Virus record (IMG/VR): IMGVR_UViG_3300027752_000057
Span: 1-34,314 of that record
DNA length: 34,314 nt
DNA from: a virus
Reading direction: 5' to 3' (one strand)
The notes under the pieces: generated by a model
What the model saw: only the letters and a program-made list of their open reading frames with translations
Database searches by the model: none
Told to the model about the DNA's origin: nothing
Shown here: piece by piece, positions 6,156-24,691 of the stretch
Numbering within the stretch: the stretch's first letter is position 1
Layout of the letters: the number at the start of each line of letters is the position of its first letter
Made by a program: the position numbers and the translations under genes

Positions 6156-6839
6156 TTATTCTTTTACGCAATCATTAACAGTTTCTCCAGTTCCGCTGGG
6201 TGATTTTTTAGTACCTACTTTTTTATAGCCATCCCAACATTTTGAGTTTTTAGAATTAGCTCCTTTAAAATTTAATGGACTTTTGTTTACACCCCTGATT
6301 GAGTCTGTGCTTTTCACTCGCTGCAAATTAGCTTTATCGTAAGCGCTCATTTTCATTTTAGAATCACCACTTAAAGAGTCTATCAAAGCATTATTTCTTC
6401 TAATTGTTGAGTTAGCTAACATAGCTTTTTTCTGAGCTTCACTATTAACTCTACTTATAACATCTCTTTGTGATTCTCCATCACTATTGCTAGCGCTTGG
6501 ATGATCGTCTACCTCTGTACCTTCCGCGGCTACTTGATTAGCTGGTGAACCACCACCAAGTATATCGTATTTCATCTTGTAAGGTGAGCCACATTTCAAC
6601 TTATCTAAAGGACTTCCATCGTCAGGTGTTGAAACTATTTTTTTACCTTTTTCAGATATAACATCACCTTTTACGTAATAACCGTTTTCTCTTCTTCTAG
6701 ATTCCTCGTCCATGATATCATCTAACTTAGGTATGTTAAGATTTTTTGTACCAACCAAGCTATCAACAAATTTCTTTGCTTCACGTCCTTCGGATCTAGC
6801 GAAGTCTTGGTATTTTTCCATTGCGGTTTCTTTACTCAT
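6156..6839 (-). CDS. Hypothetical late protein with SP and CWDGYK motifs, 227 aa
   Basis: I choose the ATG at 6839 (MSKETAMEKY), which overlaps the giant gene's stop by 8 bases. An upstream in-frame ATG at 6866 would add nine residues and enlarge the overlap to 35. The protein is hydrophilic. It carries GSPLDKLKCGSPYKMKYD and GGSPANQ in the middle and KSPLNFKG near the C-terminus. It ends with CWDGYKKVGTKKSP...NDCVKE, a Cys-flanked block of a type I recall at the ends of other marine phage proteins. It shares the SP motif with the two small late genes downstream. There is no signal or membrane segment. Function unknown; virion or assembly factor is a guess from position. Confidence 0.75.
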   Translation of the reverse strand: MSKETAMEKYQDFARSEGREAKKFVDSLVGTKNLNIPKLDDIMDEESRRRENGYYVKGDVISEKGKKIVSTPDDGSPLDKLKCGSPYKMKYDILGGGSPANQVAAEGTEVDDHPSASNSDGESQRDVISRVNSEAQKKAMLANSTIRRNNALIDSLSGDSKMKMSAYDKANLQRVKSTDSIRGVNKSPLNFKGANSKNSKCWDGYKKVGTKKSPSGTGETVNDCVKE

Positions 6840-9800
6840 CTTGTTTCTTTTTGTTTTGTAATTCAATTATTTTTTTAACTCTATTTTCTTCAATTCTTAA
6901 GGTTTTTATTTGTTTTTTTGTTAACCCTAAATCTAATAACATTATAGTTTGCTCTTTAGTAGTAGTTTGACTTTTCATATCGTCTATTTCAGCTCTAACT
7001 TTCATTTCAGGTGTTTCAATAACTTTGTCATCAACACCGTAATAAGGTAAACCTACATCCCAAGTTGACCAACCTAATGCCACGGCAACTTTTTGCCATT
7101 TTTCAGATGAATCACTATATATAGTTCTTAATGCGTTTATTTTAATAACAGCTTCATCTACTGGTATATTACTTAAAGCTGCTATTGTTTGAGCGGTTGC
7201 AAGATAAGCTGGATTGTTTAAATTAAAACCTGCATCTTCCATTTCTTTTTTGTTCCATGAAAAAGTATTAGCTGCACTTTTTAGTTTTCTTAACTTAGCT
7301 TGTAAAGGAGGTGATATAGAAAATAAATCATCAATAGCTTCTGCGTAATCAGGACTTTTATTGTCCATTTCTTCTGCTATAGTCATTAATGTGTTTTTAA
7401 GAGTAACTGCTAAAGCTCCTTGGATTCCTAAACCTCTAATTTGAGAATCAAATGCGCCGTTTAAAGTTCTTGCTACTCTTCGTTCTCTATCAGCTTGACT
7501 TCCTGGAAGTACATTACCATCTTCGTCTTCATCGTTAAACAATAAAAACTGCATACCTTGAGTTAAACCGTTAAACAAGAGATTTTGAACAGTAGAATAA
7601 TATATTAACTTAGATATGTTTTCTTTATCATTTCCTCTTCTAGCTATTAAATCTTCTATAGCTCTTTTCTGTATTCTAGCGTACTGCATTTGAGTGTTAC
7701 CAAATGAAAGTATTAATCTACCAGCAGCAGATCTTTGTTGATCACTTATCTTAGCTGGATTACTAGATTGCTGCGCTGTTTCTGATATAGCGTAAAAATC
7801 TTCAAAAGCTTTTTGCTCTGCCAATTTAGGATCCATGCCAGTAGCTAATAAAGCTTTTAATCTATTTCTATAATAAGTAGCTCCACCAGTTGCTATTGCA
7901 AAACTGTCAGCATACCTTGTAAACACAAAACCTTTATTCAAAGCTAATGCTATAAAGTCTTTGGTTTTATTACCGCTGCTTGCTGCTAAATCTGCTATTT
8001 CTGATTCACTAATATTTATTTTTAAACCATCTCTTCTTTCTACTAAATACGGAGAGTTAAACAAGAACATTACATCTTTCCAATATTGAGGTTGATTAGC
8101 AAAAGCTTGCGCAGCCTTTAAAGGGTTATTATCACTCCAGTTTATAAAGTTTACATTAGATATCATTTGCATCAATGCTGATCTAGTGTTTAAAAACATC
8201 ACAACACCTACTGAGTTGTTAATCCAATCGTACCACCTTGTTGTTATTGAATCACTACCAGTACTTCTGTTGCTACCACTTTTTTGAGATTTTATTGAAT
8301 TTTTAAGGGCATTGACATAAGCTGTTCCAAAAGCAGCTTCTAACTTATTTAATACAGTTGGTGAAAATATAATATCTATATTCTCCTGCCATTCTTGTAA
8401 ATACTCAGCTCTATTAACTTTGTTTATACCGTTTATAACATCACTTGTTATAGTTCCAGTTGTCCAGTTTTTGCCTGGTTTAGGATATGGTTTACCTTTT
8501 TGTATAACTATTAATTCATCACTAAAAACTTTTAAATCTGGATCATTTTTAATAAAATCAACTAAATTTTTTACGTCTTTTTGAGACAAACCAGGTATTG
8601 TCATACCTTGAGAATTCCATACATAAGCTCTAATAGCGTGCTCATAAGTAAATCTACCTATTCCAGTTTGTTTTAGTAAACTCTTAGGTAAGTTAGGAAA
8701 TTTCTTTTTTAAAGTTGTAAAATCAGCACCAGCAGAAACCTTAGCTTTTGATATTTCTATCTCAGCTTTATTATATGGGTCAAGTAAGTTATCTTTAAAG
8801 AAAGCCATTTGAGCATCTCCTACAGCTCCTTTTCCTAATAACTTATATAGTAACCCTGTAAAATCCTCGGCCGATGGAGGTATGTAGAAATTAAATTTAC
8901 CTTTACTAGCTCCTATTGTTTGAGCTTTAGCCGCGGAATATTGTTTATAAGCTTCAATGCCAGTTTTTTGTTCTATAATGTCGTTTATTATAGAGGTGAA
9001 AACAATTGACTTGCTTTGCTTAGCTACTTGAACTTCAGACTTTATATCTAATACATCTAAAACAGCTTTAACCGCTTGTGCGTTTTTAATAGCGTCATCA
9101 GCAAAATAAAAATCATTATAACCTTCAGCTGCTTTACCAACTATCCAATTAGCTTTGGCTTGTGGAGCTCCATTCGCCAAACCTACTATGTTTCCTTCTA
9201 TTAAAGTTACGCCTTCTGATTTTAACCAAGCGTATATTGCTGGCGCAGCTTCAGCAGGTCTAGCTGTTAATATGAATACATTTTTATTTCCATATTTTTC
9301 TACAGCTCTTTTTAACTTACCAAATAATGGTCCTCGTTTTCCTCCTATAACTTTGTTAAATTCTGAAAAATCAAACGTAGCACCTATGTCTTCTAAATTA
9401 GTATGTTCTAAAGCAAACTCAGTAGCGTCTATCTTTTTAAAAGTTCCATCAGGCATTGTAACACCTATCTTACTATTTGTTATACCTACAGTGTCATCAA
9501 AATCTAATACAGATATACCCATAACCGGAGGATTTATTCTCCTAGACATTTGTAAAGCTGTATCATAGTTATTTAATATTTCTATTTGACCTGATATGCT
9601 TTGACTTAGTTTATTTGATGCTTTAGAACCAAAATTAACGCTATTGCTGTTAAAAGAAGCTACTTTATCTTTTAATAATCTTTGATAAACTTTAAACTCT
9701 GCTTTAGCAGCTTGCACTGTCATGTCACCTGTAAGAACTCTAGTTATTAAACCATTAGCTTTCATGCCTGCCATGTCAATTCCAACTTGGAAATCAGCTC

Positions 9801-12800
9801 CTTTCAACCCATCTAATCCTGTTAGTTTACCAACAAATAACTCACCTATCGTTATATTAGGCTTAATAAGATTATATTCAAAAGGATTAGCTACATTGTT
9901 TTCACTGTATCTTATCCAAGACGCCATACCAGCAGGTAAAAAATCTAATTTTCCAGCTTCTAAAAGCGGAAGAACTAAATCATAATAACTTTTAGGTAAT
10001 TTATCTAATAGCCCAAATTGCTTTAATGCCAAATCGTTTGCTAATTTAAGAGCTCCTTGGCCATAAGATTTAGATATTATATTATCAAACTCGCTTTCAA
10101 CTTTACCTTTTATGGCTGCGTCTAATAGTGATTTTCCAGCTTGAACATTAGGCATCATGTGCTCCTCTGTTACTTCAGAATACAAATCTACTCTTCCTGT
10201 ATAAGGATCTATAGCATAAAACACAGTTGGCGCTAAAAACCTTATTGCGTGACTTTGATCTTTGCTAGATTCACTTTGCCATAGCGAAAAAGTTGAAGCA
10301 GATTCTTTATTATTTTTAATATAATCCTGTATGTTTAAAAACAATTTTTTTAACAGGTCTTGTTTCTTTTTTATTAAACCAGGGTTTTCTATTAACTTTG
10401 TTATTGCTGCTTTATTTAATTTTCTTCCTTTTCGAGTATACTTATTTCTAATTAAAGGACCTGTAGTGTCATACCCAGGAAATATTTTATCAAAAGTATC
10501 TGTATCTGTGAATGTAAAACCAAACCCACCTGTCATACCTGATCTAAATAAATAAGCTTGCTTAGGGTGTAGTTTAAAGAAACCTTCTAAATCATTTATT
10601 ATTTTTATACCAGCTGGAGTTGTTAAGTCTACTGTCCTAGCGTTAACTGTTTCTCCTTTACTGTTTACTCTTTGAGTTACAATTGTTGTTAGATCAGGAA
10701 GAGGAACTACAAATACTCCTTTCTTAAAGTCTCTTTCTACTTTTATGCCTTCAGATCTTTTTACTTGAGCTTTTTGCTTAGCACCTTCTGATTCAGTTGT
10801 TGAACCCTCTTGCACCTTAGCATCTATAGCTAGTTCTATTGCGCTTAAAGTTTGTAGTCTAGCTATTAGTTCTAAAAGACCTTTAGATGCATTAGCTGAT
10901 GTTCCTCTAGAATCTTTAATATTACCTTTAGGATCTAAACCAAAAACAGAATAAAAATAAGTTAAGTTTAATTTACTAGGATCTAGCTTGTATTGGAAAT
11001 TATTATTTATTTTAGGTCCTTGAATAAAAAATGCATCAATAATTGTTTGAGCTAGTCTTCTACCTTCACCACCTATTTTTTTAGGTTTGAACTTTCCTTC
11101 AACAGTTTGTAACGGCGCGTTTCCTTTTATTTGCTTTAATAAAGCTAATAAAGTTGGTCCATTAGACTTTATCCACATTTGAACAGGTGTAACTTCACCT
11201 TTTCTTAAATTGTCGTTTGGTTCTAATATACGTGAAACTGGTATACCTAATTGATCTGCTAATTGTTGAGCTGCGATTTTAGAAAAAGGCTTTAAATCTT
11301 TTAAAGTCATTTTATCTAAATCTATCTTACCTGATTCAATTTGTTCTTTAACAAAATCAATTATAGGGTTTGCGTTAGCAAGCTTTGTTACTTTAAAAGG
11401 ATCTATAGTAACTTGTTCAGAGGCTTCTACATTTACTGGATCTGTCATTTCAACTGTTCCAGCTGATGAATCATTTAATTCATTAGTGTTAAATATAATG
11501 TTACCAAGCGCTTTAGCTCTTTCATATATTTTATCTTTTCTATCACCTAGTCTTCGTATGTAAGTTGTTACAGCGAAATCAGTATTATAACCTTCCCCTT
11601 CTTCAAATAACGGCGTGGTTTTACCACTCCACTTAGCAACTTCTCCACCAATAATAAGTTCTATTATAGCTTTTTTTACATCGTTTTCATCTATGCCTTT
11701 TTCACCTCTTCTTTGGTAACCTATTATTGGTTTTATAACTCCAAAATTTGCTTCAACAAAAGCTTCAGCCGCTGGGTATTTATCTTTTGCAGCTCCTTGT
11801 CTAATCATTAACACTAGATCTTTATTGGTGAACAAACCTTTTCTCCACTCAGATAAAAAATTAGCTCCTTCAGGTGATATTGATTCTGATTTTTTAGAAC
11901 TTGTAAGTAAAACCTCATCTAAGCCTACGCTACCGTCATCCAATTGACCTTCAATATCTCCTTGCCAAACATCACTATTTATTATATCAGTTATAGACTG
12001 CTCTGTTAAAGTTTGATTTTTATATCCTTCAGCTACTTGTCTCAATAACTCTACTACACCTTTAGCTCCTTTAAAGTCATAATCAAAATCTTTACCAACA
12101 GCTTCAGATGTTGCTTTATTAAATCCAATACCTAAAGTTGACCAAAAACCTTGCTCTTTACCTTTTTCAAAATTAATTCTATCTAATTCTTCTAAGAAAA
12201 CAGTTAACACTTCGTCAAAACCTTGGCCCTCGGTTTTACGTGCTATTCTAATATATGCATCATAATCAAACTCAGCAAGATAAGTTAATATGGTCCCAGC
12301 TAAAGATTTAAAAGCCTCTGGATTAGTACCTAAAGCTTCTGTAAAAATAACATGACCCGTTATTTCATGTAAACCTACTCCACCATTATTATTTAATATA
12401 GCGTTTTCAATAGTAACTACAGAGTCGTAAACTGGTTTACCTGTTTTTACATTAATAGATATAAAATTAATACCATTTACAGTACCATCTTTTAATCCGG
12501 CTTTAAAATCTTCTATTGCTTTTCTACCTGCTTCTTCTTTACTTATAGGATCTATTTTAGAACCTCTAAACTGTATATTTGGATCTGCTATTCTAGCATT
12601 AACCATGTCTGTGAAAGCTGCTAAAGCATCTGCATTAGTATCTAAGATGCTATAATTTACATCTATTCCTTTTCCACGTAAAAGAGATATCATTGCAAAA
12701 TCATTTTCTGCATTGCCTCTTATAGTATCTTCAGTGTATAGCTGTTCAGCTATATTAAGTAGTTGAGCATCAGAAGGACTGTTATTACCTTTTGATTTTA

Positions 12801-15666
12801 GTTTTGCTTTAGCTCTATCTTTTAAATCGTTTTGAACAGAAACAGAAAGCAACCCAAACTTTTTAGTGAAAGCTACTAAGTAAGCATCTAGGTTTGATTT
12901 AGTTATAGAAAACTCAAGTTCTAGCGCCGCTATTTGTTTTGATACATCAATCGCTATTCCAGGTTTTTTAGCTTCTGCTCTAAGTGATATAGCTTGTTCT
13001 TTAAGATAAGTAAGTCTGTTTATAGAGTTGACATAAAGCTTCCAACCAGTGGCGTCTAGGTTTAAATCTATTAATTCACTTCTTTCTTTTAGTATAGCAT
13101 CGTTTCTTTTTAATTTATCATCTATAAGACCTTTGTAGTAAATTTTTGTATTAATATCAAGATCTGGTCCACCTTCGTTCTTAGCTATGATTTCTTGATA
13201 TTCAGCTATGTCTCTAACGTTTTGATCAAACTCCGCGTTTGTAGTAGGATCAGTTAAAGCTCTCATTGAAGCTCCTGCTATTATTGGAACTCCTGTAAAA
13301 CTTGTTGAGAATATTAAAGACGTAAAACCAGCTTCACCAAAACCTTCGTACATAGGTCTTCCGGATATAACATTTTGCCACAATTGAGTAATTAAAACTT
13401 CACCACCAACATCTGCTGCGGTTAATTTTAAGAAATCTGGAGTTGCTTTTCTTACATCTCTAAAAAAAGCTTGTACTCCTGATTCAAGAGTTTGCTTGTC
13501 AAGTTTTAAGTTTTGAATATACTTGAATTGCATTTTCATAGGCAAAGCACTACCTAAACCTTCAACTAACGCAAAGCCAAAAGCTTTTGCTAAAGTGCTT
13601 TCTCTATCAAACTCAATACCTTGAGCTTTTGCTCTATTAAATTCATCAACATAATAATCACCACCAGCAGACAACGCAGCTAAATAAAGGCCAATATGTG
13701 GTATAGCAACAGTAGCAAAAAACGGTAGTTGTTCTATAGCTGTTTGACTAAGAAAATATAAAAAATTAGGAAATGAGTAAAAAGATCCATTTGGTCCTTT
13801 ACCAAACTCAACATCTTTTACATAGTCAAGTTTTCTTAATTCAATTAAATCTTTAAAACCTGCTTGAGCTTCTAAAAAATCATCGCCTAATGCTTGAGCA
13901 ATTATTTTAGACATAAACAAACCTGGCGCAAAAATTCCTGCATTAGCTATAGCTTTATCAGGAACATCCGCCATGCTTTGCAATATTATTTGCATCCAAC
14001 TCATACTGGTATTGGAAAATCCCATACCAAGCTCACTGTTTGTAAAAAACCCTACGGCATTAGGAAGTGTAACAGGCGCCAACCCACCACCGCCAAATGA
14101 AATTCCAGTCATAGATGGTTTTCCAAAGTATTTTTCTGATAGACTATAACTTCTTCTTAAGTAATCTAAGTTTTCTTCAGCAGTGTCTTTAACTTCGTTA
14201 GTAGCAATAAACTCTGCGTAATCATAATTAATTAAGTCAAATTGCTGTTGTATTGTTTTTCTTTCAGTGCTTAATATATTAGACCTTTTATTGAAACTAG
14301 CCGCTAAAGCATTGTATGTATTTTGATCCTCTAAAGAATTAATACCAATTTTTTGTTTTGCTTTTATTCCTGCACTTAAAGTATTTATTTCTCCATAAAC
14401 CCTTTCTAACTCAACGCTCATCAAGTTTACAGTTTTAACTATATCACTATTTTTTAAAGATTCATATTCTTCTACTAGTCTAATAGACTCAATTTCTGGA
14501 TTAAAAGTACTTTCAATACCAAGAGCGTAATCATGGTTTTGTTTTCTTTCTTCGTCACTTATATCACTTAAGTAATCTCTATTTTTTTGATCTTTTAAAG
14601 CTGTGTATTTATTTCTTGCAATTTGAAGTTTTGTTACACCTCTTATTTCAGCTTCAGTTATAGGCTCCTCACTAGATGTTTCTTCTCTTTGGCTTTGTAA
14701 AAATGAAATAGCCATATTTCTTTCTTCTTCGTAAGGAACCGTAGTGATGGTTACATTTTCAGTTGTACCCTCTGATCGATAAGACATCTTCAAGTCCATT
14801 CCGCTAAGGCCAGCGTTTGGAATAGCTCTTACTGTTTCTGTTACCTGAGTGTCTAAGTTAATTAAACCTACTTCATTTTGAATAGCTAAATACTCTTTAA
14901 GAGTAACGTCACTTGCTTCTTGATATTTTTCGTACTGTAATCTTATTTTTTTCTCTACATCTGTTTCATCTTTTTTAAACGCGTAAACAGTTACCTCGTC
15001 TAAATCTCCAACATTACCAGTACCATCATCCATAACAAAACCATCCTCAAGTTTGTCAAGTTCACTTTGTGGTTTTTGTTCTTGTATTTTTTTTTCAGCT
15101 TCTATATAAACATCAATATCAAAATCATCAATAAAACCTAGTCTTGATGCAACTAACCTGGTAGCTAAACCGTCTCCAGTGGTATCAATCCAATCATCCG
15201 AACCTAACGCTTTAGCGTAAAAAATTGGTTGTGAAGTTATTGGATCTACTGTGTATTTATAAGCACCGTCACCATAGTCAAAAACTTCACCAGGTGGAGC
15301 TGTGTATGTTTGGTTAAATTCAAAAGGCGCAGCGTCTTCATTTGCAAAAGGGAATATTGGTTCCGGTGGAATAGGATCAATAGGTAATCCCGATAAAGCA
15401 ACTTCCGAGCTGGATCCCGTATCTTTTTCTGTCTCCACAGTTGGATCCGCACTTGTAGAGACATTTGTCTTTGCTGGTTTAACAGGGTCTATATCTTTAT
15501 TAATTTCTTCAGATATTTCAGTTTCAACTTTTAAGTCTATTGGTTTTTCCTCTTTAACATCTAAAGGTTTGTTGGATATTTTCCACTCTTTTATTCTCTC
15601 TATTCTTTGTTCTTTAGTTAAACCTAAGTCTTTAAGAGAAGCTGTGAATGATTCTAATTCTGTCAT
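6832..15666 (-). CDS. Giant internal virion protein with metallopeptidase-like and HAD domains
   Basis: At 2944 aa this is the largest protein in the window. Order: acidic Pro/Glu-rich N-terminus (about 30-130); helical region (about 230-510); Gly-rich and hydrophobic stretches (about 515-560, 645-670, 780-800) that may insert into membranes; a metallopeptidase-like HEITGH (H1100, E1101, H1105) with a candidate third ligand E1152. A HAD phosphatase domain covers about 2050-2220, with D2055/D2057 (DFDDT), T2134 (TAR), K2171 and D2190/D2191 (FADDA). A conserved phage block follows at about 2480-2720 (FLNTRSALMQMISNVNF, INWSDNNPL), resembling large polyvalent protein-associated regions. Position after the 220-aa internal protein fits a protein ejected with DNA. 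The roles of the domains are inferred. Confidence 0.85.
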   Translation of the reverse strand: MTELESFTASLKDLGLTKEQRIERIKEWKISNKPLDVKEEKPIDLKVETEISEEINKDIDPVKPAKTNVSTSADPTVETEKDTGSSSEVALSGLPIDPIPPEPIFPFANEDAAPFEFNQTYTAPPGEVFDYGDGAYKYTVDPITSQPIFYAKALGSDDWIDTTGDGLATRLVASRLGFIDDFDIDVYIEAEKKIQEQKPQSELDKLEDGFVMDDGTGNVGDLDEVTVYAFKKDETDVEKKIRLQYEKYQEASDVTLKEYLAIQNEVGLINLDTQVTETVRAIPNAGLSGMDLKMSYRSEGTTENVTITTVPYEEERNMAISFLQSQREETSSEEPITEAEIRGVTKLQIARNKYTALKDQKNRDYLSDISDEERKQNHDYALGIESTFNPEIESIRLVEEYESLKNSDIVKTVNLMSVELERVYGEINTLSAGIKAKQKIGINSLEDQNTYNALAASFNKRSNILSTERKTIQQQFDLINYDYAEFIATNEVKDTAEENLDYLRRSYSLSEKYFGKPSMTGISFGGGGLAPVTLPNAVGFFTNSELGMGFSNTSMSWMQIILQSMADVPDKAIANAGIFAPGLFMSKIIAQALGDDFLEAQAGFKDLIELRKLDYVKDVEFGKGPNGSFYSFPNFLYFLSQTAIEQLPFFATVAIPHIGLYLAALSAGGDYYVDEFNRAKAQGIEFDRESTLAKAFGFALVEGLGSALPMKMQFKYIQNLKLDKQTLESGVQAFFRDVRKATPDFLKLTAADVGGEVLITQLWQNVISGRPMYEGFGEAGFTSLIFSTSFTGVPIIAGASMRALTDPTTNAEFDQNVRDIAEYQEIIAKNEGGPDLDINTKIYYKGLIDDKLKRNDAILKERSELIDLNLDATGWKLYVNSINRLTYLKEQAISLRAEAKKPGIAIDVSKQIAALELEFSITKSNLDAYLVAFTKKFGLLSVSVQNDLKDRAKAKLKSKGNNSPSDAQLLNIAEQLYTEDTIRGNAENDFAMISLLRGKGIDVNYSILDTNADALAAFTDMVNARIADPNIQFRGSKIDPISKEEAGRKAIEDFKAGLKDGTVNGINFISINVKTGKPVYDSVVTIENAILNNNGGVGLHEITGHVIFTEALGTNPEAFKSLAGTILTYLAEFDYDAYIRIARKTEGQGFDEVLTVFLEELDRINFEKGKEQGFWSTLGIGFNKATSEAVGKDFDYDFKGAKGVVELLRQVAEGYKNQTLTEQSITDIINSDVWQGDIEGQLDDGSVGLDEVLLTSSKKSESISPEGANFLSEWRKGLFTNKDLVLMIRQGAAKDKYPAAEAFVEANFGVIKPIIGYQRRGEKGIDENDVKKAIIELIIGGEVAKWSGKTTPLFEEGEGYNTDFAVTTYIRRLGDRKDKIYERAKALGNIIFNTNELNDSSAGTVEMTDPVNVEASEQVTIDPFKVTKLANANPIIDFVKEQIESGKIDLDKMTLKDLKPFSKIAAQQLADQLGIPVSRILEPNDNLRKGEVTPVQMWIKSNGPTLLALLKQIKGNAPLQTVEGKFKPKKIGGEGRRLAQTIIDAFFIQGPKINNNFQYKLDPSKLNLTYFYSVFGLDPKGNIKDSRGTSANASKGLLELIARLQTLSAIELAIDAKVQEGSTTESEGAKQKAQVKRSEGIKVERDFKKGVFVVPLPDLTTIVTQRVNSKGETVNARTVDLTTPAGIKIINDLEGFFKLHPKQAYLFRSGMTGGFGFTFTDTDTFDKIFPGYDTTGPLIRNKYTRKGRKLNKAAITKLIENPGLIKKKQDLLKKLFLNIQDYIKNNKESASTFSLWQSESSKDQSHAIRFLAPTVFYAIDPYTGRVDLYSEVTEEHMMPNVQAGKSLLDAAIKGKVESEFDNIISKSYGQGALKLANDLALKQFGLLDKLPKSYYDLVLPLLEAGKLDFLPAGMASWIRYSENNVANPFEYNLIKPNITIGELFVGKLTGLDGLKGADFQVGIDMAGMKANGLITRVLTGDMTVQAAKAEFKVYQRLLKDKVASFNSNSVNFGSKASNKLSQSISGQIEILNNYDTALQMSRRINPPVMGISVLDFDDTVGITNSKIGVTMPDGTFKKIDATEFALEHTNLEDIGATFDFSEFNKVIGGKRGPLFGKLKRAVEKYGNKNVFILTARPAEAAPAIYAWLKSEGVTLIEGNIVGLANGAPQAKANWIVGKAAEGYNDFYFADDAIKNAQAVKAVLDVLDIKSEVQVAKQSKSIVFTSIINDIIEQKTGIEAYKQYSAAKAQTIGASKGKFNFYIPPSAEDFTGLLYKLLGKGAVGDAQMAFFKDNLLDPYNKAEIEISKAKVSAGADFTTLKKKFPNLPKSLLKQTGIGRFTYEHAIRAYVWNSQGMTIPGLSQKDVKNLVDFIKNDPDLKVFSDELIVIQKGKPYPKPGKNWTTGTITSDVINGINKVNRAEYLQEWQENIDIIFSPTVLNKLEAAFGTAYVNALKNSIKSQKSGSNRSTGSDSITTRWYDWINNSVGVVMFLNTRSALMQMISNVNFINWSDNNPLKAAQAFANQPQYWKDVMFLFNSPYLVERRDGLKINISESEIADLAASSGNKTKDFIALALNKGFVFTRYADSFAIATGGATYYRNRLKALLATGMDPKLAEQKAFEDFYAISETAQQSSNPAKISDQQRSAAGRLILSFGNTQMQYARIQKRAIEDLIARRGNDKENISKLIYYSTVQNLLFNGLTQGMQFLLFNDEDEDGNVLPGSQADRERRVARTLNGAFDSQIRGLGIQGALAVTLKNTLMTIAEEMDNKSPDYAEAIDDLFSISPPLQAKLRKLKSAANTFSWNKKEMEDAGFNLNNPAYLATAQTIAALSNIPVDEAVIKINALRTIYSDSSEKWQKVAVALGWSTWDVGLPYYGVDDKVIETPEMKVRAEIDDMKSQTTTKEQTIMLLDLGLTKKQIKTLRIEENRVKKIIELQNKKKQDE

Positions 15667-15671
15667 TTAAT

Positions 15672-16772
15672 TTAATTTAAGTCGTTATCAGCTAAAAATT
15701 TCTGAGCTTCTTGTTTTTTTGATTCTTCAAGATCAAACACAGCGGCGTCTGCCTGTACCGATGGTAGTTGGTTAGTTGTAAATTGTTTTAAATAGTTTTT
15801 CATAAAATACTCTTTATATTTTTTTGTAAATAAAACTTTGTTACTTTGTAATAATGGTAGATCTTTTTCATATGACCAACTACTGTGCCCAGCGTTTGCG
15901 TTTTGAGCCATTTGATCGTCTTCTTCTTGACTAGTTCCTTGAGCTATATAAACATTCCAAGCCGCTACTGCATTTTGTTCAGAGCTTAATAAACCTGCAA
16001 CCTCTGCGTTTATAAAAGGTGATGTCTTTTTATCAATTTTATCCATGTCATATTGCAATACATTTCTACCTTTGTTGTCTCCTAAATCTATTACTTCATA
16101 TATAGGATTTCCTTCTGCATCTGTTAAAACAAATTCTTCGCTTATCTTGGCTGTAGGTAATAAATTACCATCTTCATCAATCATGTCTTCGCTAAATATT
16201 TTTACATCTTTTAATAACTCTAACATGTTTTTACCTATATCTGGAGTAGATGTAACTAAAGAAGTTCCTGACTCCAATAGCGATGTTAAAGCAGTACTGT
16301 TTAAAATAAATTCACCTGGAATACCTGGTCCACTAAAAACTAATTGCTGAGAACCATCGTGTAGTAAATGTAAACTAGCATTATATCCATCTGTTTTACT
16401 AAAACCAGGTTTTGAACTTAATAAGGAATATATTACAGTATATACAAAATTATTATTAGGATCATAGTTAGGTTCATCTACAGCGGATACTTGAGATATT
16501 AGGTCTGATAAAAAATCTAATGACTTTTGAGGCGCTGCTTCAAGTTCAAGAAGCTTTTTAGTTTCTAATTCACAATTTTCACTAACACACGTGTTATTTT
16601 GTATGGAAAGCTTCATTTTAGCATATATCTTACCAGTAAATTCGTAAGCCTTATTTAATAAATTAAAGTCATTATTAGTTGGACTTGCTAAATAATCTAA
16701 ATTATAAGCTATAGCATCACTTTGATTAAGTTGCTTTATTAAAAGATTATTTGTAATATTAGTATTTTCCAT
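15672..16772 (-). CDS. Hypothetical virion-region protein, 366 aa
   Basis: A 366-aa hydrophilic protein with no recognised domain, no signal and no membrane segment. It has an Asn-rich N-terminus, a Cys pair (CVSENC, about residues 62-67) and a lysine/glutamate-rich helical C-terminus (KYKEYFMKNYLKQF, then EESKKQEAQKFLAD). It lies between the 220-aa internal-virion-like gene and the giant gene and ends six bases before the giant gene's ATG. The order small-medium-giant recalls the T7 internal core set gp14-gp15-gp16, so it may be the gp15-position protein. That comparison is from gene order only. Confidence 0.8.
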   Translation of the reverse strand: MENTNITNNLLIKQLNQSDAIAYNLDYLASPTNNDFNLLNKAYEFTGKIYAKMKLSIQNNTCVSENCELETKKLLELEAAPQKSLDFLSDLISQVSAVDEPNYDPNNNFVYTVIYSLLSSKPGFSKTDGYNASLHLLHDGSQQLVFSGPGIPGEFILNSTALTSLLESGTSLVTSTPDIGKNMLELLKDVKIFSEDMIDEDGNLLPTAKISEEFVLTDAEGNPIYEVIDLGDNKGRNVLQYDMDKIDKKTSPFINAEVAGLLSSEQNAVAAWNVYIAQGTSQEEDDQMAQNANAGHSSWSYEKDLPLLQSNKVLFTKKYKEYFMKNYLKQFTTNQLPSVQADAAVFDLEESKKQEAQKFLADNDLN

Positions 16773-16785
16773 TTTTTATATTTTA

Positions 16786-17448
16786 TTAAGCTCCCATGCT
16801 TATTTGCTCTCCAGCTATCCCTGCCAAAGATCCAAACATACCTGTTACGGCAGAAGTTTCATCTCTAAAGGCTTCGTTTTCTCTATTTTGAGCTCCAGAT
16901 AATAAATCAGCAGTTCTATCAAGTTCTTGCAGTTGTCTTGTTTCTCTCGTTCCAAACATAAATTTTTCTCCCATAACATCAGCTTGTTGTATTCTTTGAG
17001 CTTCTGACATTTGTTGAGCTTGAAGTCTTTGTTCTCCTTGAGCTCTTAATTTATCGTTTTGAGCTTCTTGTTGTTCTATACTAGCTGAAACACCTTTTTT
17101 AGATCTTAAAGCAGCTTGAGCTAAAGCGGTTGCTCCACCAGCACTTGCTCCAGTTGCTCTCATTGTATCTAAAGTATTAGCTAAAGATATATCAGCTTCT
17201 TCTATTTGCATTTCTGCGGCTTGAGTTGCCACTGATAAAGTATCCATAGGATTACTTAATAAACTACTTAAGCTAGTAATACCAGCATAAGGATTTATTA
17301 TTTCTTGTCTATTGTTTTCCAAGTCTGCTAACTTAGCTTCAAGCTTTTTTCTTTGATCTCTTGCTGCGGTAGCTGCTTTTTTTGCTGACGCTGCACCCAT
17401 GATTCCGCCTGCTATTGAAAAAGCGCCTCCTATTATTGCTGGTAACAT
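16786..17448 (-). CDS. Internal virion protein, T7 gp14-like position and composition
   Basis: A 220-aa protein with a Gly/Ala-rich hydrophobic N-terminus (PAIIGGAFSIAGGIMGAASA), a following basic helix (AATAARDQRKKLEAKLADL) and a long Ala/Gln-rich helical region (residues about 85-170). It ends in another hydrophobic Gly-rich stretch (TGMFGSLAGIAGE). This pattern of a hydrophobic glycine-zipper start plus Ala/Gln-rich helices is typical of the small internal virion proteins of podoviruses, such as T7 gp14, which are ejected and form a pore in the outer membrane. It is followed by the 366-aa and 2944-aa genes, matching the internal-core order. Assignment is by composition and context, not clear sequence identity. 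Confidence 0.75.
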   Translation of the reverse strand: MLPAIIGGAFSIAGGIMGAASAKKAATAARDQRKKLEAKLADLENNRQEIINPYAGITSLSSLLSNPMDTLSVATQAAEMQIEEADISLANTLDTMRATGASAGGATALAQAALRSKKGVSASIEQQEAQNDKLRAQGEQRLQAQQMSEAQRIQQADVMGEKFMFGTRETRQLQELDRTADLLSGAQNRENEAFRDETSAVTGMFGSLAGIAGEQISMGA

Positions 17449-17460
17449 ATTTTTATATTT

Positions 17461-19368
17461 TTAATATCCATTATTTATTATGTAAGAACTTTCTACTGAA
17501 AACAATTGTTTATTTCCACCTGGATCTGTTGTTGTATCTGTAGAAAATTGTGCTATAGAATAGAAACCTTTTACGCCACTTATTGATTCACCCCAAATAA
17601 CCTCACTATCGTTTGCTGTACTAAAGTTTCTTAAGTTTCCAACGTATTTATTTTCTTTTCTATTAAAACCAGCGTGACTCACTGGGTATGGTGGATTACC
17701 TGTTCCAAATACGGTTTCGTAATCAACTCTATTTACAATGCTAACAAATGTTAAAATAGAATTAATAACAAAATTAGCTGAAGCACTAACGGTTAATATT
17801 CCTATATTTACAAAATTAACAAAAGAAGATTGATTAATAGCTAAAGTATTACTAGCGACTAAAACTCCTGTTCCAGAATCATAAGATACGACCGTGGTTC
17901 CAGCAACGATGCCATCACCTGATATTGTAGTTCCCACAGGAATATCTACACTAACACCTGTCAATGTAACTGAAGTACCAGCACTGTCTGAAGAAGCTTG
18001 ACCTTGTATTCCAGCGTAAGAAACAACTGTAACACCCAAACCAACACCAATTCCAGATACTATAGCTCCATCTATAACAGGTATGGTGTTTGCTATAACA
18101 ACGCTTGTTCCAACCACTGTCTGTGTAACTGTTCCTGTTGAGCTAGTTTCTATATACTCACCTTCGTAATAACTATAAAGAGAAGGATAAGTGGTACTAG
18201 GCGTTACCTGCATAGTGCTATCTTCACTTGACGCCCAATTAACTTTTGGTTGAGTATCTAAACCAGTGGGATCAGATACTAAAGACGTTAAAGACCAACC
18301 GTTGTTTCCTTCGTAACTAACAGTGTTAAATGTTTTTGAATTAGCAGGAGCTGCATTGAAAACCACTGTTACACTACTAGGTCTATCAACGCTATAAAAA
18401 TTACCTCTTTTAGCTGATGGAAAATTTATAGTTTCAGCATAGTGCTCCCAAACACCACCGTCTTTTATAGTATAAAAATTATTTTTAAGACTAAATATTT
18501 GTTCTGGATTAAAAGTAAAAAAACTTACCCAACCTCTTGCTTGCTCGTCAAAAGATAAAGTACCAGGTACTTCTGTTGAAGTTGTGCTGCGAATTGGGTT
18601 TAATTGAGATGAAACAACATATTGATTATTATGTAAGTCATAACCACCTAAAATAATACCTTCACCTTGAACAGTGTCTATATCATTTATTCTATCTCTA
18701 AAGTAATCTCTCATGCCATATCTTGATATTTCTTCAATACCATTTTGACTTAACCTTAGTATAGCGTTATTATTTTTATCAGAAAAATATTTACTATATC
18801 CATATATAGCAAAACTTTCAGGGTTTTTACTTATACCATATTCACCAGAATAAGGTTGTATAACACCTATGACTAAATTACTAGAAGTTACGGATCCACC
18901 ACCTTCGGCTGAGTATATAGCGTCTTTATCTATTAATGCTCTAGATACTTTATTTTCTTGAAAAATAATTAAATTAGTATCTTCAGCGTATAGTTTTTGT
19001 ATAGAAGCATTTGCTGGATCTGCTGTTTTAGTTATGTCTTCTCCAACTGAAAAAACGTTTGTTTGATTTATACCTGTTCTAGAATTAAATATTCCAGAAT
19101 ATATAAGAGAACTTTTTCTATAAGAACCAAGTCTTTCATCTTCTACTATATAAGCTTTAACACCAAAATCAACAGTAGTATTATTATACCCTCCTCTTAT
19201 TCTAGACTCTTCTATAGCCCAATTATAAGGAGAACTAGACACTACTCTAGAGTAACCACCTAGTTCAGATGGTATACCATAAGACCCGTTCCATACTGGT
19301 ACGTTATCTTCTGTTGTCTTTTTTAATATAAAAGTGTTAAAATATTTAACCTCTACTACTGCTCCCAT
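17461..19368 (-). CDS. Tail protein, 635 aa, stabilisation/adhesin-like
   Basis: This 635-aa beta-rich protein shows no signal or membrane segment. Its first 320 residues read like a propeller or P22 gp10-type packaged-DNA stabilisation fold: LIIFQENKVSRALIDKDAIY, then FAIYGYSKYFSDKNNNA and LRLSQNGIEEISRYGM. Residues about 418-518 hold two copies of a short beta module (VSG.G...G.TVVSY) also present in the 1761-aa protein upstream. The C-terminal part (about 540-635) is beta-rich with SAEVIWGES-like strands. It follows the larger tail gene and precedes the internal virion genes. Likely role: part of the tail hub or a receptor-binding component. I recognise the general type but not a specific named family. 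Confidence 0.75.
   Translation of the reverse strand: MGAVVEVKYFNTFILKKTTEDNVPVWNGSYGIPSELGGYSRVVSSSPYNWAIEESRIRGGYNNTTVDFGVKAYIVEDERLGSYRKSSLIYSGIFNSRTGINQTNVFSVGEDITKTADPANASIQKLYAEDTNLIIFQENKVSRALIDKDAIYSAEGGGSVTSSNLVIGVIQPYSGEYGISKNPESFAIYGYSKYFSDKNNNAILRLSQNGIEEISRYGMRDYFRDRINDIDTVQGEGIILGGYDLHNNQYVVSSQLNPIRSTTSTEVPGTLSFDEQARGWVSFFTFNPEQIFSLKNNFYTIKDGGVWEHYAETINFPSAKRGNFYSVDRPSSVTVVFNAAPANSKTFNTVSYEGNNGWSLTSLVSDPTGLDTQPKVNWASSEDSTMQVTPSTTYPSLYSYYEGEYIETSSTGTVTQTVVGTSVVIANTIPVIDGAIVSGIGVGLGVTVVSYAGIQGQASSDSAGTSVTLTGVSVDIPVGTTISGDGIVAGTTVVSYDSGTGVLVASNTLAINQSSFVNFVNIGILTVSASANFVINSILTFVSIVNRVDYETVFGTGNPPYPVSHAGFNRKENKYVGNLRNFSTANDSEVIWGESISGVKGFYSIAQFSTDTTTDPGGNKQLFSVESSYIINNGY
17810..18115 (-). 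repeat. Two tandem beta modules inside the 635-aa tail gene
   Basis: Residues about 418-518 contain two consecutive copies of a short unit. The first reads IVSGIGVGLGVTVVSYAG and the second ISGDGIVAGTTVVSYDSG, each preceded by a strand of the form GTSV-V-x(5)-I/V. Similar units are found in the neighbouring 1761-aa protein, which suggests duplication or exchange between tail genes. The copies are diverged at DNA level, so the relation is read from protein. Confidence 0.6.
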
Positions 19369-19405: not shown

Positions 19406-22400
19406 TTACGTAGGTTCGTTTATTGAAAAAACGTAATTAGAAGGCGCAGGATTTATAGGAGTTGCTGTTCCGCTTCCTGCTGTTTGAGTCCAACTCCATG
19501 CTGAAGCACCACTATACACTAAGCAATTACCTATGCAATCTCCAGTAGCTAGCCCTGTTAATAGTCCTGGTAAAACAAACGTGTTGCCTATAGTTCCAAT
19601 AGCTACATCTTGAATATTTGTAAAAGGACCTGACCAAGCGCCTGTACAATATTGATCATAAGCATTACCACTTAGACCTAGTAACTGAGACCTACTTTGT
19701 CCCTGAGCGTTAAGACCATTTGTAGGTACAATGCTTATATTAGAACCTCCACCTTGTGAAGCTAGCATATTATCCCAGTTAGGAAAATCTCCAGAATTTT
19801 GTGATCCACCTTGCCACACGTACCATCCAGTTTGACCATTGCCAAAAGGATACGCATAACCGTTTTCAGGACATAAAAACACTAAAGTGAATTTAGCCTC
19901 AAAAGGATCTATAGGTATGTTAGCGTTGCAGCTTCTAGTAAACCCTGTTAACTTCCACTGTTGTATTAAACAAACTTTAGCTCCAGTGTTTATTATAGCA
20001 GAACAAGAAACAGAAGCACCTGGATCTCCTAAAGTCATGTTTACAGTGTATATATCAGAAGGCATACTAGAATCTTCATAACCTTTGTTTAATAATGTTA
20101 TTTCTCCTTTAGCAGCAAGTCCAGTACCGTTTTTAGTAGCAACACCGCTGTTTCCAAACTCAAAATAATCAACTAATTCATTTTGAGAATTAAATTGATC
20201 ACCCATCGTAAAGGTTAAATCTTTCCAAGCATTTGCATTACCTTGAGGCGCTAAGTCTGTAATATCAAATCCAGCTCCGTTAACTCCGTATATAGTAGCT
20301 ATTATTTCAGTGGTTGTATTACCTGGATAATATGGACCCATAGGGCAATTATCCCAAACCGGATCTTCGTATACAGATATACTGTCTCCATCGCTAACAG
20401 CTACTTGTTGATTAACCTCTAACGTTGGAGTTGGTCTCCATTGTATTTTAGCATTTGCAGGTAACGTAACCGCTTGACTAACTACGATACTTCCAGGAGT
20501 ACCACTGCTTATAGATACTATATAAGTGCCTTCCGGAACAGTTCCAACAGAGTCTACATCACGTATTAAATAACCTACAGTACTACCTAGCGGGGTAAAG
20601 GTTAAAGGAATTGTTGTTGCGTTGCTTACGCCGGTTGTTTGTGGTTGTATAAACTCAGGTGCCCAAGGTACATCATTAGGTGTATAACCATTTCCGCTTA
20701 CAACTAAGTTAGCTGGATATCCAGGCCCATCAACATTGTCTCCAATATCTATATCATCTACGTTACCTACAACGTTATAAACGTTTATAATATTAGAAGG
20801 TGTAGGAAATCCTAAGGCATTCATTGTTACTGGTTGATAATAATAAAAATGAGGAGAAACGTTTTCTAAGTTTAGTTCTTTTTCAAAAGAAGACGTTAAA
20901 CCATTTACAGTAGCTGAAAACAAGCATGTGAAACTAAATCTTTCTGGTTCAGTTCCAAACCATATATGATTAACAAAACCAGTACTTATTTTTAAATTAT
21001 ATAAATTACTACCAGATCCTGTTTCTTCAAAGCTAAATACTGGTTGAATTACATTGTTGTCATCTGTATAAGCGGTTTGTACATTTGTTCCAAAACCATC
21101 TGTTATTGAATCTAAAGTTAACGGCGAAGCTATAACAGTACCAAAGTTAGTTACTAGTCCAAAAGGAGTAGTTGTTATGTTTGGCCATTCACTAGTCACA
21201 GGGTCTTGTCTTAAGCTTTCTAAAAAATTATTTAAATTAAAAGGAGAAACTCCTCCAGCTGCTTCGCCACCGGTGTTTTCGTTTAGTATAATATTATTTA
21301 CGTCTTCTATAACACCTGTTGTAGATGATTCCCAAAATATATCTAATAAACTGTTTACTGGTTCTGTTTCATAAACCGCTAGATATTGTATACCTGGCTT
21401 TGTTTCGCTTGTTATATCTATTCTATCACCTGCGTTTACGGCTACTTGTTCATTTATAATTAAAGTACCAGGTGTTGTAAAGTCAATAGATTCACCAGAA
21501 GAAACTGGAGATATATTATTAAGTATAACGTTTGGTTCGCCTGCTACTGAAGGATTAATTATTTCTAAAACAACAGTACCTTCTGGTACACCTGCTCCAG
21601 AAACTATTTGGCCAACAGACATCAAGCCGGTTCCAGCAAAAAACAAACCAGCTACATTACTAGATTCTGATGTGTTTACTGTTACCGCAAGAGTTGGCGG
21701 ATTATAACCAGCTCCTGAAACAACAACTGTGTCTGGAAAATTTGGACCAGTAACTGTCATGCCTACTTCAATGGAACCAACAGCACCTACTTCACCGTAT
21801 AACTGTAAAGTATTAGTAGTGTTGCTTACTGCTATAAAAGCGCTAACAGACGTATAATTAATATTAGCTAATTGACCTATTTTTGAAGCTGTGCTAATTC
21901 TAGCTACATAAGGATTTGATTCTAGCGTATAAAATTGCGGAAAAAGATTTGGCTCAGGTGGAGTTAATGGATCGTAATCAAACAAATCATTTACCGTAGA
22001 AATAGTTATAGCTATATCGTTTGATCTACCAGGATAATATTGTAAATTACTTTGACCCACGTTATCATTCGCTGTTGTTATAGATATAACAGAGTTTTCA
22101 ACCCTACCGTATAATTTTACGGAACTTCTAAACTGATTTTGTGTTGGACCCACTTCAGTTAAATCTCTAGGTACTTTATTAATGTTATCACTTATTAATA
22201 CTATATGAGAAGTAACTCCAACCTCTAAGGTTATGTCATTAGGATAAGAAGCCATTATACCAGGCAGGTAGACATTATAGTACTCTTGCTCTGTTTGTTT
22301 TACTACAATTTTGTAAGAATACCAACCTAAAGGATTATAAGATAAACTCGTAGCGTCACCATTATAAACACCAGGTTCGAAAGTTTCAAAATTTCTAACA

Positions 22401-24691
22401 GTAGCTATTTCATTGTTAAAAATTAATTTTATAGAATCTCCAGGCCAAGTGTCTGGATCAACATTAATGTCATTGTATGGTGAATATATAGTAGAACCTT
22501 TAAAAGTGTTACTACCTATTGTTATTAACTCCTTATTATTTGAAAGTATAACACCAGATTGTCTTCCGTACCTATCCGAAAGCACAACACCAACTTGGTA
22601 ATTTCTGTTTGTTTTTACGCTTGAGTTTGGGTATTCTATTTTGCTAGTACTGTTTTGAGTATCACCTCCTGGTTCTAAAATAACTAATTGTAAGTTTACT
22701 AGTATTCCTATAGTAGGAGTGTCTAATGTTATAGTGTTTCCATTTATGTTAGTTATTAAAGTACCAATAGCTACTCCATCAGAAACAACCACCATGCCTA
22801 CAAAAATATCTCCTTTTGGGTTAGTTATATTTATAACTGTAGATCCAATTGGAAAACTACCACTTACCGCAGCTGTTCCTCCGTTTAAATCAAAGTCTGA
22901 CTTAGGTGATATAGCTACGTTATAGTCTATGTATTCAGGTGCAGTATGTTTGTTTTGATAGTTTCCATATATAACTCTATTACCTGAAATTTCTTGAGCT
23001 AGAGCTCTAACAGGTGTTTTGTCGTAAACTCTTATTAAATCTTTTTCCGGTAAAGTTTTAAACGGTTTTTTAGATTGGTAATTGTAAACGTGGTAATTAG
23101 GTTCCCCTATTGTTAGTTTAACGCCAGCTATTAAAGTTTGTACCGAGCTAAGTTCAATCCTACCTGAAGTGCTAGGTAAGACACTTGGATTGTCTGGCGT
23201 GTAACTTACCACTGTCACGTTTGTTGTAATTCCAAAACCAGTCACATAACTACCAACTTGTATTCCACCCAGTATGCCATCAACATTTACGTTAACACTC
23301 GCGCTTGTTGTTGTTTTTACATTTGCTATACCAGAAGAATTATATAGAGTTGTAGAATCTACAGTGTCCACAACCTTAATAGGTAGTTGATCTGATTCTT
23401 TGTAAAGTATATCTATAGCAGTAACCTTTAAAGAGTTTAGCATGCTATAATTAGCGTATGGAAGTGGTATTCTTAACTTGATGTCGTCTACTTTGTTCTC
23501 AACAAAACTAACTATAGTACTTCTTAATGTCTCAGATTCATTGTTTACTTCTTTTAAATTAGGAGTATTAACGTACATAAAATAACCATCTTGCTTAGGT
23601 ATAAAAGCAGCTTGAGTAAAGGTAGAAAATAAAGAATATTGACTGTCTTCAAATTTAAATCTATATCCAAATCTAACAAACTTATCATCTAAATAAGTTG
23701 GATCACCTGCAAATTCAGGATTATAATAAGGATTCACATTAAGTATTATAACAGTATTGCTAGGTAAGTTTTCGGTAAACGTTAGACCACTAGCAAAAGT
23801 TAACTCCCAAGTAGGTGTAGCTCCTGTATCATCATATGTTGCTGTTTCTACCAATAGACTAGGTATAGTTTGAACTACACCAAGAGCATCAACGTATGAA
23901 ACACTAGAGCCAGTGTTATACGGATTTTGTATGTTTCCGTCTAAAAGTATGTCTCCAATAAAGTTTTTTACAAATATACTTGTGGCGCCAGTTGTTACAG
24001 ACGCGTTCAAAGATCCATTACCACCGTTGGGTAAATTTTTACTTGTAACATCCTTCATGGTTGTTTCGTATTGAGGAGTTGCTGAAGTTGTTAATTTGCT
24101 TTCAGCATAAAGCTCTATACATTTGTAGGGATTATATTTTGCAACAGATATTTGATCTTCGTTAGTGTAATGCGTAGGTGTTGCGAGTCTATTTGGATTT
24201 GCTAAACTAATATTTATGCACCTAGGTTGGTTTCTATTATCTGTCCAAAACAATAAGTTTTCAACTATGCTTAAACCATGCACTGGACGTGTTTGAGAAA
24301 AATTAAGAAAACCACCTTGAACCAATATAGTCAATGGATTTCCGGTTGTGTCTTGTGAATTAAAAGCAAGTATATAGTTTTTAGCCGAAGGACTGTAGCT
24401 GTTAGGTTTTTGACCTTGAACATCACTCCAGTTTGTAAAAAACAAATAAGCAATACCAGAAGCTTCATCTTCAATAGAACCAATACAATAAAGATTAGCG
24501 GATCCAGTTAAAACTTGAGCATCTGCAACCTTAGAATTTCCTAAAACATTTTCTAAAGAACCAACATTAGCTCCTTCTGATTTGTTTACCTGCACGTTTA
24601 TAGCATCCCTGTATTCGTTATTAGGAAGTATGCGAGCGTCCAAGTCTTTATTCATCTTGGACTTTAAGAAAGTATTTTTAGACTTGTTCAT
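19406..24691 (-). CDS. Large tail stabilisation/adhesin protein, 1761 aa
   Basis: The N-terminus (about 8-50) reads LKSKMNKDLDARILPNNEY, then AINVQVNKSEGANVGSLENV. This opening resembles the stabilisation/tail-hub proteins of crAss-like and related podoviruses that I recall, usually a beta-propeller fold (WTDNRNQPRCINI, about 149-161, fits a blade). The rest is beta-rich with repeated modules at about 464-535, 609-675, 954-1094 and 1297-1442. The last two are copies of one unit. The C-terminal part (about 1440-1761) has Cys/Trp/Gly-rich stretches, likely exposed and host-contacting. There is no signal or membrane segment. It starts six bases after the 411-aa gene stop. Likely role: tail knob and receptor binding. 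Confidence 0.8.
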   Translation of the reverse strand: MNKSKNTFLKSKMNKDLDARILPNNEYRDAINVQVNKSEGANVGSLENVLGNSKVADAQVLTGSANLYCIGSIEDEASGIAYLFFTNWSDVQGQKPNSYSPSAKNYILAFNSQDTTGNPLTILVQGGFLNFSQTRPVHGLSIVENLLFWTDNRNQPRCINISLANPNRLATPTHYTNEDQISVAKYNPYKCIELYAESKLTTSATPQYETTMKDVTSKNLPNGGNGSLNASVTTGATSIFVKNFIGDILLDGNIQNPYNTGSSVSYVDALGVVQTIPSLLVETATYDDTGATPTWELTFASGLTFTENLPSNTVIILNVNPYYNPEFAGDPTYLDDKFVRFGYRFKFEDSQYSLFSTFTQAAFIPKQDGYFMYVNTPNLKEVNNESETLRSTIVSFVENKVDDIKLRIPLPYANYSMLNSLKVTAIDILYKESDQLPIKVVDTVDSTTLYNSSGIANVKTTTSASVNVNVDGILGGIQVGSYVTGFGITTNVTVVSYTPDNPSVLPSTSGRIELSSVQTLIAGVKLTIGEPNYHVYNYQSKKPFKTLPEKDLIRVYDKTPVRALAQEISGNRVIYGNYQNKHTAPEYIDYNVAISPKSDFDLNGGTAAVSGSFPIGSTVINITNPKGDIFVGMVVVSDGVAIGTLITNINGNTITLDTPTIGILVNLQLVILEPGGDTQNSTSKIEYPNSSVKTNRNYQVGVVLSDRYGRQSGVILSNNKELITIGSNTFKGSTIYSPYNDINVDPDTWPGDSIKLIFNNEIATVRNFETFEPGVYNGDATSLSYNPLGWYSYKIVVKQTEQEYYNVYLPGIMASYPNDITLEVGVTSHIVLISDNINKVPRDLTEVGPTQNQFRSSVKLYGRVENSVISITTANDNVGQSNLQYYPGRSNDIAITISTVNDLFDYDPLTPPEPNLFPQFYTLESNPYVARISTASKIGQLANINYTSVSAFIAVSNTTNTLQLYGEVGAVGSIEVGMTVTGPNFPDTVVVSGAGYNPPTLAVTVNTSESSNVAGLFFAGTGLMSVGQIVSGAGVPEGTVVLEIINPSVAGEPNVILNNISPVSSGESIDFTTPGTLIINEQVAVNAGDRIDITSETKPGIQYLAVYETEPVNSLLDIFWESSTTGVIEDVNNIILNENTGGEAAGGVSPFNLNNFLESLRQDPVTSEWPNITTTPFGLVTNFGTVIASPLTLDSITDGFGTNVQTAYTDDNNVIQPVFSFEETGSGSNLYNLKISTGFVNHIWFGTEPERFSFTCLFSATVNGLTSSFEKELNLENVSPHFYYYQPVTMNALGFPTPSNIINVYNVVGNVDDIDIGDNVDGPGYPANLVVSGNGYTPNDVPWAPEFIQPQTTGVSNATTIPLTFTPLGSTVGYLIRDVDSVGTVPEGTYIVSISSGTPGSIVVSQAVTLPANAKIQWRPTPTLEVNQQVAVSDGDSISVYEDPVWDNCPMGPYYPGNTTTEIIATIYGVNGAGFDITDLAPQGNANAWKDLTFTMGDQFNSQNELVDYFEFGNSGVATKNGTGLAAKGEITLLNKGYEDSSMPSDIYTVNMTLGDPGASVSCSAIINTGAKVCLIQQWKLTGFTRSCNANIPIDPFEAKFTLVFLCPENGYAYPFGNGQTGWYVWQGGSQNSGDFPNWDNMLASQGGGSNISIVPTNGLNAQGQSRSQLLGLSGNAYDQYCTGAWSGPFTNIQDVAIGTIGNTFVLPGLLTGLATGDCIGNCLVYSGASAWSWTQTAGSGTATPINPAPSNYVFSINEPT
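20365..20800 (-). repeat. Duplicated tail module, copy B
   Basis: Residues about 1297-1442 of the 1761-aa protein. The sequence contains NVYNVVGNVDDIDIGD, GPGYPANLVVSGNGYTP, then VPEGTYIVSI and TLEVNQQVAVSDGDSI. The same ordered motifs occur in copy A (21410-21830). Divergence is substantial at both DNA and protein level, with length differences in the linkers, so the duplication is old or has been under fast selection. Confidence 0.7.
21410..21830 (-). repeat. Duplicated tail module, copy A
   Basis: Residues about 954-1094 of the 1761-aa protein. The sequence contains LQLYGEVGAVGSIEVGM, GPNFPDTVVVSGAGYNP, then VPEGTVVLEI and TLIINEQVAVNAGDRI. Each motif has its counterpart in the same order in copy B about 1 kb downstream. 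Confidence 0.7.

Follow-up and report, generated by a model that had tools for sequence, protein, structure and literature searches.

The giant gene and its late cluster

What kind of protein does a phage encode in a single 8.8-kb late gene, and at which point of infection would that protein act? The question is raised by a virus contig of 34,314 bases, which was analyzed over its full length (the window). On the minus strand, one uninterrupted reading frame of 2944 codons runs from an ATG at 15666 to a stop codon ending at 6832 (P0001, 2944 aa, 6832..15666). The first-pass annotation had described this gene without its strand, and every feature that it named was found in P0001. The gene is real and has copies in independent IMG/VR contigs: the giant of one relative (L002) was 100% identical to P0001 across residues 1-2944, and that of another (L001) was 87% identical across residues 1-2539. 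No domain was matched by Pfam in the whole of P0001, PADLOC gave nothing useful for the whole protein, and PHROG yielded weak matches only, including a weak polynucleotide kinase match. When two giants were compared by tblastn with 50,697 phage records, no match was obtained. The profile searches below demonstrate that the 2944-residue protein is a member of a large, previously unrecognised family.

The giant gene is the final member of a late cluster that holds the portal, capsid, muzzle, g220 and g366 genes. Directly upstream and adjoining it lies g366 (15672..16772, minus strand), found beside 38 of 87 giants, followed by g220 (16786..17448, minus strand), found beside 78 of 87. A crAss-type muzzle was located near the giant in 74 of the 87; in the window and in several relatives it is split into two genes, and in the named relatives it is one gene. 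The second half is annotated as a muzzle or virion structural protein (17461..19368, minus strand; phrog_14478, profile 923-1228) and the first half matched Pfam crAss_MUZ (19406..24691, minus strand; 5.7e-13), with phrog_14478 matching both halves. In nearly all relatives the giant was the final gene behind the muzzle-g220-g366 cassette. The portal protein (30408..32798, minus strand; phrog_6547, E 2e-146) served as the marker of the phage clade, and its family was present in all 10 contigs checked.

The closest records to the portal were a podovirus (51% identity), the Flavobacterium elemo phages (41%) and Cellulophaga phi38:1 (37%), followed by Cellulophaga phi18:3 (27%) and Tenacibaculum Gundel_1 (26%). 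Since the named phages closest by portal are elemo, phi38:1, phi18:3 and Gundel_1, the sequence points to an uncultured marine phage whose host is probably a member of the Bacteroidota. Family giants L094-L111 were also seen in MAG bins labelled Woesearchaeota, Aliivibrio, Maricaulis and others; these taxa are inconsistent and the contigs are probably mis-binned viruses, so the bins name no host. Elsewhere in the window, an Amidase_2 endolysin-like gene lies downstream of the giant (5423-5848, minus strand), and the small and large subunits of ribonucleotide reductase are encoded on the opposite, plus strand (754-1722 and 2621-4339), the large subunit being short at 572 aa.

A constant C-terminus behind exchanged N-termini

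A profile built from residues 2028-2937 of P0001 matched at least 547 viral stretches in IMG/VR, some of which resembled P0001 in this region only, at about 40% identity. The conserved C-terminal phage block noticed earlier is thus real and spans about 900 aa. Among the best 80 of the at least 547 relatives, the full-length giants measured 2326-3532 aa and all ended in the same block. The first ~2000 residues fell into 63 clusters among 78 giants, and 13 of 60 pairs with C-termini at least 80% identical had less than 30% of the N-terminus in common, counting any blastp match; L036 and L037, with C-termini 90% identical, had 14% of the N-terminus in common. Single modules recurred in different company. 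Residues 236-1260 of P0001 were common to L034, and overlapping parts of this stretch to L080, L084 and L047; swappable middle modules (aa 1253-1640; 10747..11910, minus strand) were common to only some relatives, with residues 1420-1610 recurring in L068 and others; and residues ~1760-2073 were common to L019, L020, L022 and L027. The family therefore consists of large multidomain proteins with a mosaic architecture, as is also true of polyvalent proteins.

The last part of the block (aa 2230-2937; 6856..8979, minus strand), constant across the family, was all-helical in the predicted model. When this C-terminal model was searched against BFVD, homologues from uncultured viruses ranked first (27-40% identity), and the next tier was composed of giants annotated as large polyvalent protein or ART-PolyVal (10-15% identity over ~900 columns, E ~1e-7 to 1e-5); the Gundel_1 structural protein was matched as well. 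The predicted C-terminal structure thus ties P0001 to polyvalent proteins independently of the peptidase domain described below. A sequence profile of the C-terminus found nothing in the PDB. The giants of L003, L004, L005 and L006 end in Cys/His-rich tails (repeated C ... GKRC ... C-x-x-H) that resemble small zinc-binding units, and P0001 is without them.

A zincin-like peptidase domain downstream of hydrophobic helices

The HExxGH motif reported in the first-pass annotation is present as HEITGH at residues 1100-1105 (12352..12369, minus strand), an HEXXXH form, and a third ligand, E1152, is encoded at 12211-12213 on the same strand. H1100, E1101, H1105 and E1152 were invariant in a 58-member alignment. 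In P0001 and L001 the motif is one residue longer than the HExxH of nearly all relatives. In shuffled P0001 the expected number of HExxH or HExxxH motifs is 0.002, and HExx(G)H occurred in 74 of 78 full-length relatives, compared with 0.6% of shuffles. An iterated profile recovered the domain in 77 of 79 full-length giants. In the AlphaFold2 model (pLDDT mostly 80-97 at ~940-1160), strands and helices followed the order of a zincin core; the motif was placed on one helix and the glutamate on a later one. Lack of a folded domain at 1000-1200 had been proposed as grounds for rejecting the earlier assignment; the prediction was folded at ~1000-1190. With the HEXXH/HEXXXH motif and downstream Glu that define the class, residues 1000-1230 (11977..12669, minus strand) are predicted to form a zincin-like metallopeptidase domain.

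Pfam matches of single members were weak but fell in several zincin families: M78 (6 members, best E 0.0013), SprT, Reprolysin and DUF3267. Foldseek and VIA-align searches with a 701-residue zincin model matched long helices alone, which swamped the search. Influenza HA2 and Tse5, matched by the profile of the zincin-plus-helical region against the PDB (E at least 0.003), were rejected as hydrophobic or coiled segments reflecting composition, not homology. In four relatives (L036, L072, L079 and L083) the motif reads EE in place of HE, the first His being replaced by Glu; their zincin may be inactive, and protease activity would thus not be universal in the family.

Upstream of the zincin lies a helical region with hydrophobic segments (aa 560-800; 13267..13989, minus strand; pLDDT mostly 40-60). 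The earlier description of hydrophobic Gly-rich stretches was borne out for hydrophobicity, with three stretches at ~572-590, 647-665 and 779-799, and less so for glycine, which was only mildly raised at 500-830 (9.7% vs 7.2%). The 'membrane-active' label was derived from nothing but these hydrophobic, low-confidence helices and was not retained. In the relatives, hydrophobic segments were concentrated 300-500 aa upstream of HExxH.

A predicted Pnk-type phosphatase, with a kinase nested within it in six relatives

Residues 2047-2204 (9055..9528, minus strand) contain the HAD catalytic set of DxDxT, (S/T)xR, K and DD. The full motif set claimed previously is complete, and D2055, D2057, T2059, T2134, R2136, K2171, D2190 and D2191 were invariant in alignments of 55 and 46 members. 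The model also predicted a fold at ~2047-2204, where an unfolded 2050-2220 had been named as an argument against the domain. Against the PDB, Foldseek found nothing with E below 0.4 for the C-terminal model; from the same candidates, VIA-align picked out chain 5uj0_B, the T4 Pnkp 3'-phosphatase, as the best (Z 11.3, 120 residues, 2.5 A), and Nir2 followed with Z 9.0 and acid phosphatases with 8.6 or less. At the sequence level, of the 46 HAD segments compared, 40 were matched by phrog_415 (polynucleotide kinase; best E 6e-9) and 2 by Pfam PNK3P; a sequence profile of the HAD domain found nothing in the PDB, and single-sequence hhalign with T4 Pnkp aligned motif I alone. Identified by motifs, profiles and predicted fold, the domain is modelled as Pnk-type and nearest in fold to the T4 Pnkp 3'-phosphatase, although the substrate is not readable from the sequence.

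Six relatives from six metagenomes carried a complete T4-Pnk-like P-loop kinase inside the HAD domain, between motifs I and II, beginning 37 residues past DFDDT and ending before TAR (at residue ~1642 of the giant in L019, ~1531 in L020, ~1631 in L022, ~2062 in L024, ~1605 in L027 and ~1782 in L038). The nested kinase matched AAA_33 (4e-16) and phrog_505, a polynucleotide kinase family (2e-12), and aligned with the T4 Pnk kinase domain in 138 of 149 columns; its best PDB matches were weak and fell in the 4gp7/4jst/4mde group (E 0.003), which we take to be the kinase domain of CthPnkp. Kinase and 3'-phosphatase together make up the T4 Pnk set in these six relatives, in nested order. P0001 itself has no P-loop kinase and corresponds to the phosphatase alone, not to the whole bifunctional T4 Pnkp. 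RNA ligase was not found in 15 contigs, mostly fragments, by two models, one of them without a positive control; sealing would therefore fall to the host.

A HAD enzyme carried into the cell could also take a nucleotide or another small molecule as its substrate, for instance as a nucleotide or cofactor phosphatase for the phage nucleotide pool, instead of nucleic-acid ends. Such substrates are frequent among HAD enzymes, acid phosphatases and NagD-type HADs were among the next fold matches (Z 8-8.6), Pfam DUF2608 matched 28 of the 46 segments, and a ribonucleotide reductase is encoded in the window. The T4 Pnkp phosphatase, however, topped the fold matches by more than 2 Z units, phrog_415 matched the large majority of segments, and six relatives carry a polynucleotide-kinase-like domain within the HAD; we consider a small-molecule substrate unlikely, and of the alternatives weighed here it is the one to be taken most seriously.

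In most giants an E-H-x-x-P ... R module of no recognisable family stands ~160-270 aa upstream of the HAD domain; in P0001 it occupies aa 1760-2030 (9577..10389, minus strand), with E1835, H1836, P1839 and R1919 invariant in 38 members. A search for a nuclease relationship gave no meaningful family or structure match. A second DxDNT motif (RYDIDNTLAKEY or RYDIDNTIAKEY) was observed in the variable part of three giants, at residue ~2004 of L003, ~1969 of L004 and ~1944 of L005, and possibly marks another HAD domain.

Proposed presence in the particle and delivery into the cell

The first-pass annotation had placed the gene at an ejection-protein locus and had given its product peptidase-like and phosphatase regions. 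Locus and domains were both recovered, and presence in the virion was supported through relatives alone (phi18:3, elemo and Gundel_1). For gp123, the giant at the counterpart locus of phi18:3, the record gives a structural role on the basis of experimental MS/MS. The phi18:3 and phi38:1 giants showed no HExxH, no HAD and no detectable homology to P0001, so the mass spectrometry evidence is positional only. Two other giants annotated as structural are homologous to P0001 in part: that of elemo in the zincin (E 2.8e-6), and gp074 of Gundel_1 at the C-terminus (E 1e-10). P0001 may instead be a late cytoplasmic protein that never enters the virion, such as a maturation protease with an accessory enzyme, and zincins could process virion proteins before packaging, as was suggested for P1 DdrB (PMC5512222). 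The detection by MS of the phi18:3 protein from the same locus in the virion, together with a C-terminal fold common to polyvalent proteins, makes this very improbable.

Should the protein be packaged, it might serve mainly as a trans-envelope conduit or structural ejection protein of the T7 gp15/gp16 or crAss001 gp45 type, with enzymes that are minor or degenerate. In crAss001 the cargo proteins lie within the capsid and the tail, and it was proposed that they leave the particle in a partly unfolded state and that two of them, gp45 and gp46, form a channel through the membrane (PMC10172136). The position behind the muzzle, the hydrophobic helical regions kept upstream of the zincin, and the elemo, phi38:1 and phi18:3 giants without HAD are all in keeping with a conduit. 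Catalytic residues of zincin and HAD that are invariant in dozens of divergent members would be unneeded in a structural role, and a mainly structural function is judged unlikely, slightly more so than a small-molecule substrate.

The reading that we favour, by a modest preference, is that P0001 is ejected cargo of the polyvalent type, in which the zincin processes the protein and the Pnk-type phosphatase heals nucleic-acid ends at entry. The giant would be made late, packed in a short-tailed particle with a crAss-like muzzle, and reach the cell together with the DNA or before it. Because it is constant and its locus syntenic, the helical C-terminus of ~700 aa would be the packaging and ejection module. 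The zincin would cut its own polypeptide, or a host protein, and thereby release or activate the variable N-terminal modules, a step that we infer from the literature on the polyvalent class, for which cleavage of the chain by the zincin was proposed as the way in which modules are released or activated (Iyer et al., 2017; PMC5512222). Fold and nested kinase suggest that the HAD domain is a T4-Pnk-type 3'-phosphatase, removing a 3'-phosphate or 2',3'-cyclic phosphate from DNA or tRNA broken by host defences, and the nested kinase of some relatives would phosphorylate the 5' end too. In its broadest form, put forward only tentatively, the proposal is that a marine phage clade of wide distribution injects an end-healing 3'-phosphatase, to which some members add a nested 5'-kinase, within a self-processing protease giant, and that repair of tRNA or DNA ends damaged by host defences precedes phage gene expression.

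T4 uses Pnk together with RNA ligase to mend tRNAs that anticodon nucleases of the host have cut, as stated in the RnlA note of the T4 record and in PMC2610378. If the proposal is true, a particle-borne Pnk-type enzyme shifts end repair to the moment of entry, and nucleic-acid end healing joins the known repertoire of polyvalent proteins. Naming a family that has at least 547 viral stretches and no match in the 50,697 phage records would annotate much marine viral dark matter, and the exchange of N-termini ahead of an unchanging C-terminus supplies a ready-made set of candidate effectors for injection in the early phase.

Comparison with known systems

T7 gp16 is a large late protein that is ejected with the DNA. 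Lysozyme or transglycosylase families of the T7 gp16 type had no Pfam or PHROG match in P0001, which agrees with the earlier statement that its set of activities is distinct from the gp16 transglycosylase. As the comparison for P0001, T7 gp16 gives way to the polyvalent proteins, which fit instead (Iyer et al., 2017; PMC5512222).

The N4 virion RNA polymerase gp50 is likewise a giant protein of the late locus with a zincin (HEXXH), and in a profile alignment its zincin region coincided with that of the P0001 family at HExxH (pairwise E 5.6e-4, probability 30%). A virion RNA polymerase of the N4 or crAss type was rejected for P0001, as DxDGD was absent from P0001 and from nearly all relatives and P0001 matched no RNA polymerase family. 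The same plan is found in crAss001, where a crAss-type muzzle lies beside virion cargo genes (gp45-gp50); that cargo includes RNA polymerase subunits, and the known likeness to P0001 is the phage plan. The elemo, phi18:3/phi38:1 and Gundel_1 phages have related virion genes and a giant annotated as structural. The elemo giant has the zincin in common with P0001 and the Gundel_1 giant has the C-terminal block, its gene sitting upstream of the terminase, whereas all of the elemo, phi18:3, phi38:1 and Gundel_1 giants are without HAD.

T4 Pnkp (PseT) has the same HAD fold, judged by the model's match to 5uj0, and the DxDxT motif, and six relatives add a 5'-kinase to it. In T4 PseT the kinase is N-terminal to the phosphatase, whereas in the relatives it sits within the HAD domain of a giant late protein, an arrangement unlike that of T4 Pnk. 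We know of no report of T4 PseT as a virion protein.

Polyvalent proteins and the P0001 family are both very large, mosaic and phage-borne, with a zincin hub that includes the HEXXXH form; zincin peptidases are the commonest (hub) domain of polyvalent proteins, and the HEXXXH form was described among them (Iyer et al., 2017; PMC5512222). The Pfam LPD families had no match in P0001, and LPD14 matched one relative (E 0.0024). The family differs from the polyvalent proteins of that study in its constant Pnk-type HAD phosphatase, the words 'phosphatase' and 'haloacid' being absent from the text of the paper. Giant ejected zincin proteins are already known, and what appears new against that account is a Pnk-type HAD domain found throughout the family.
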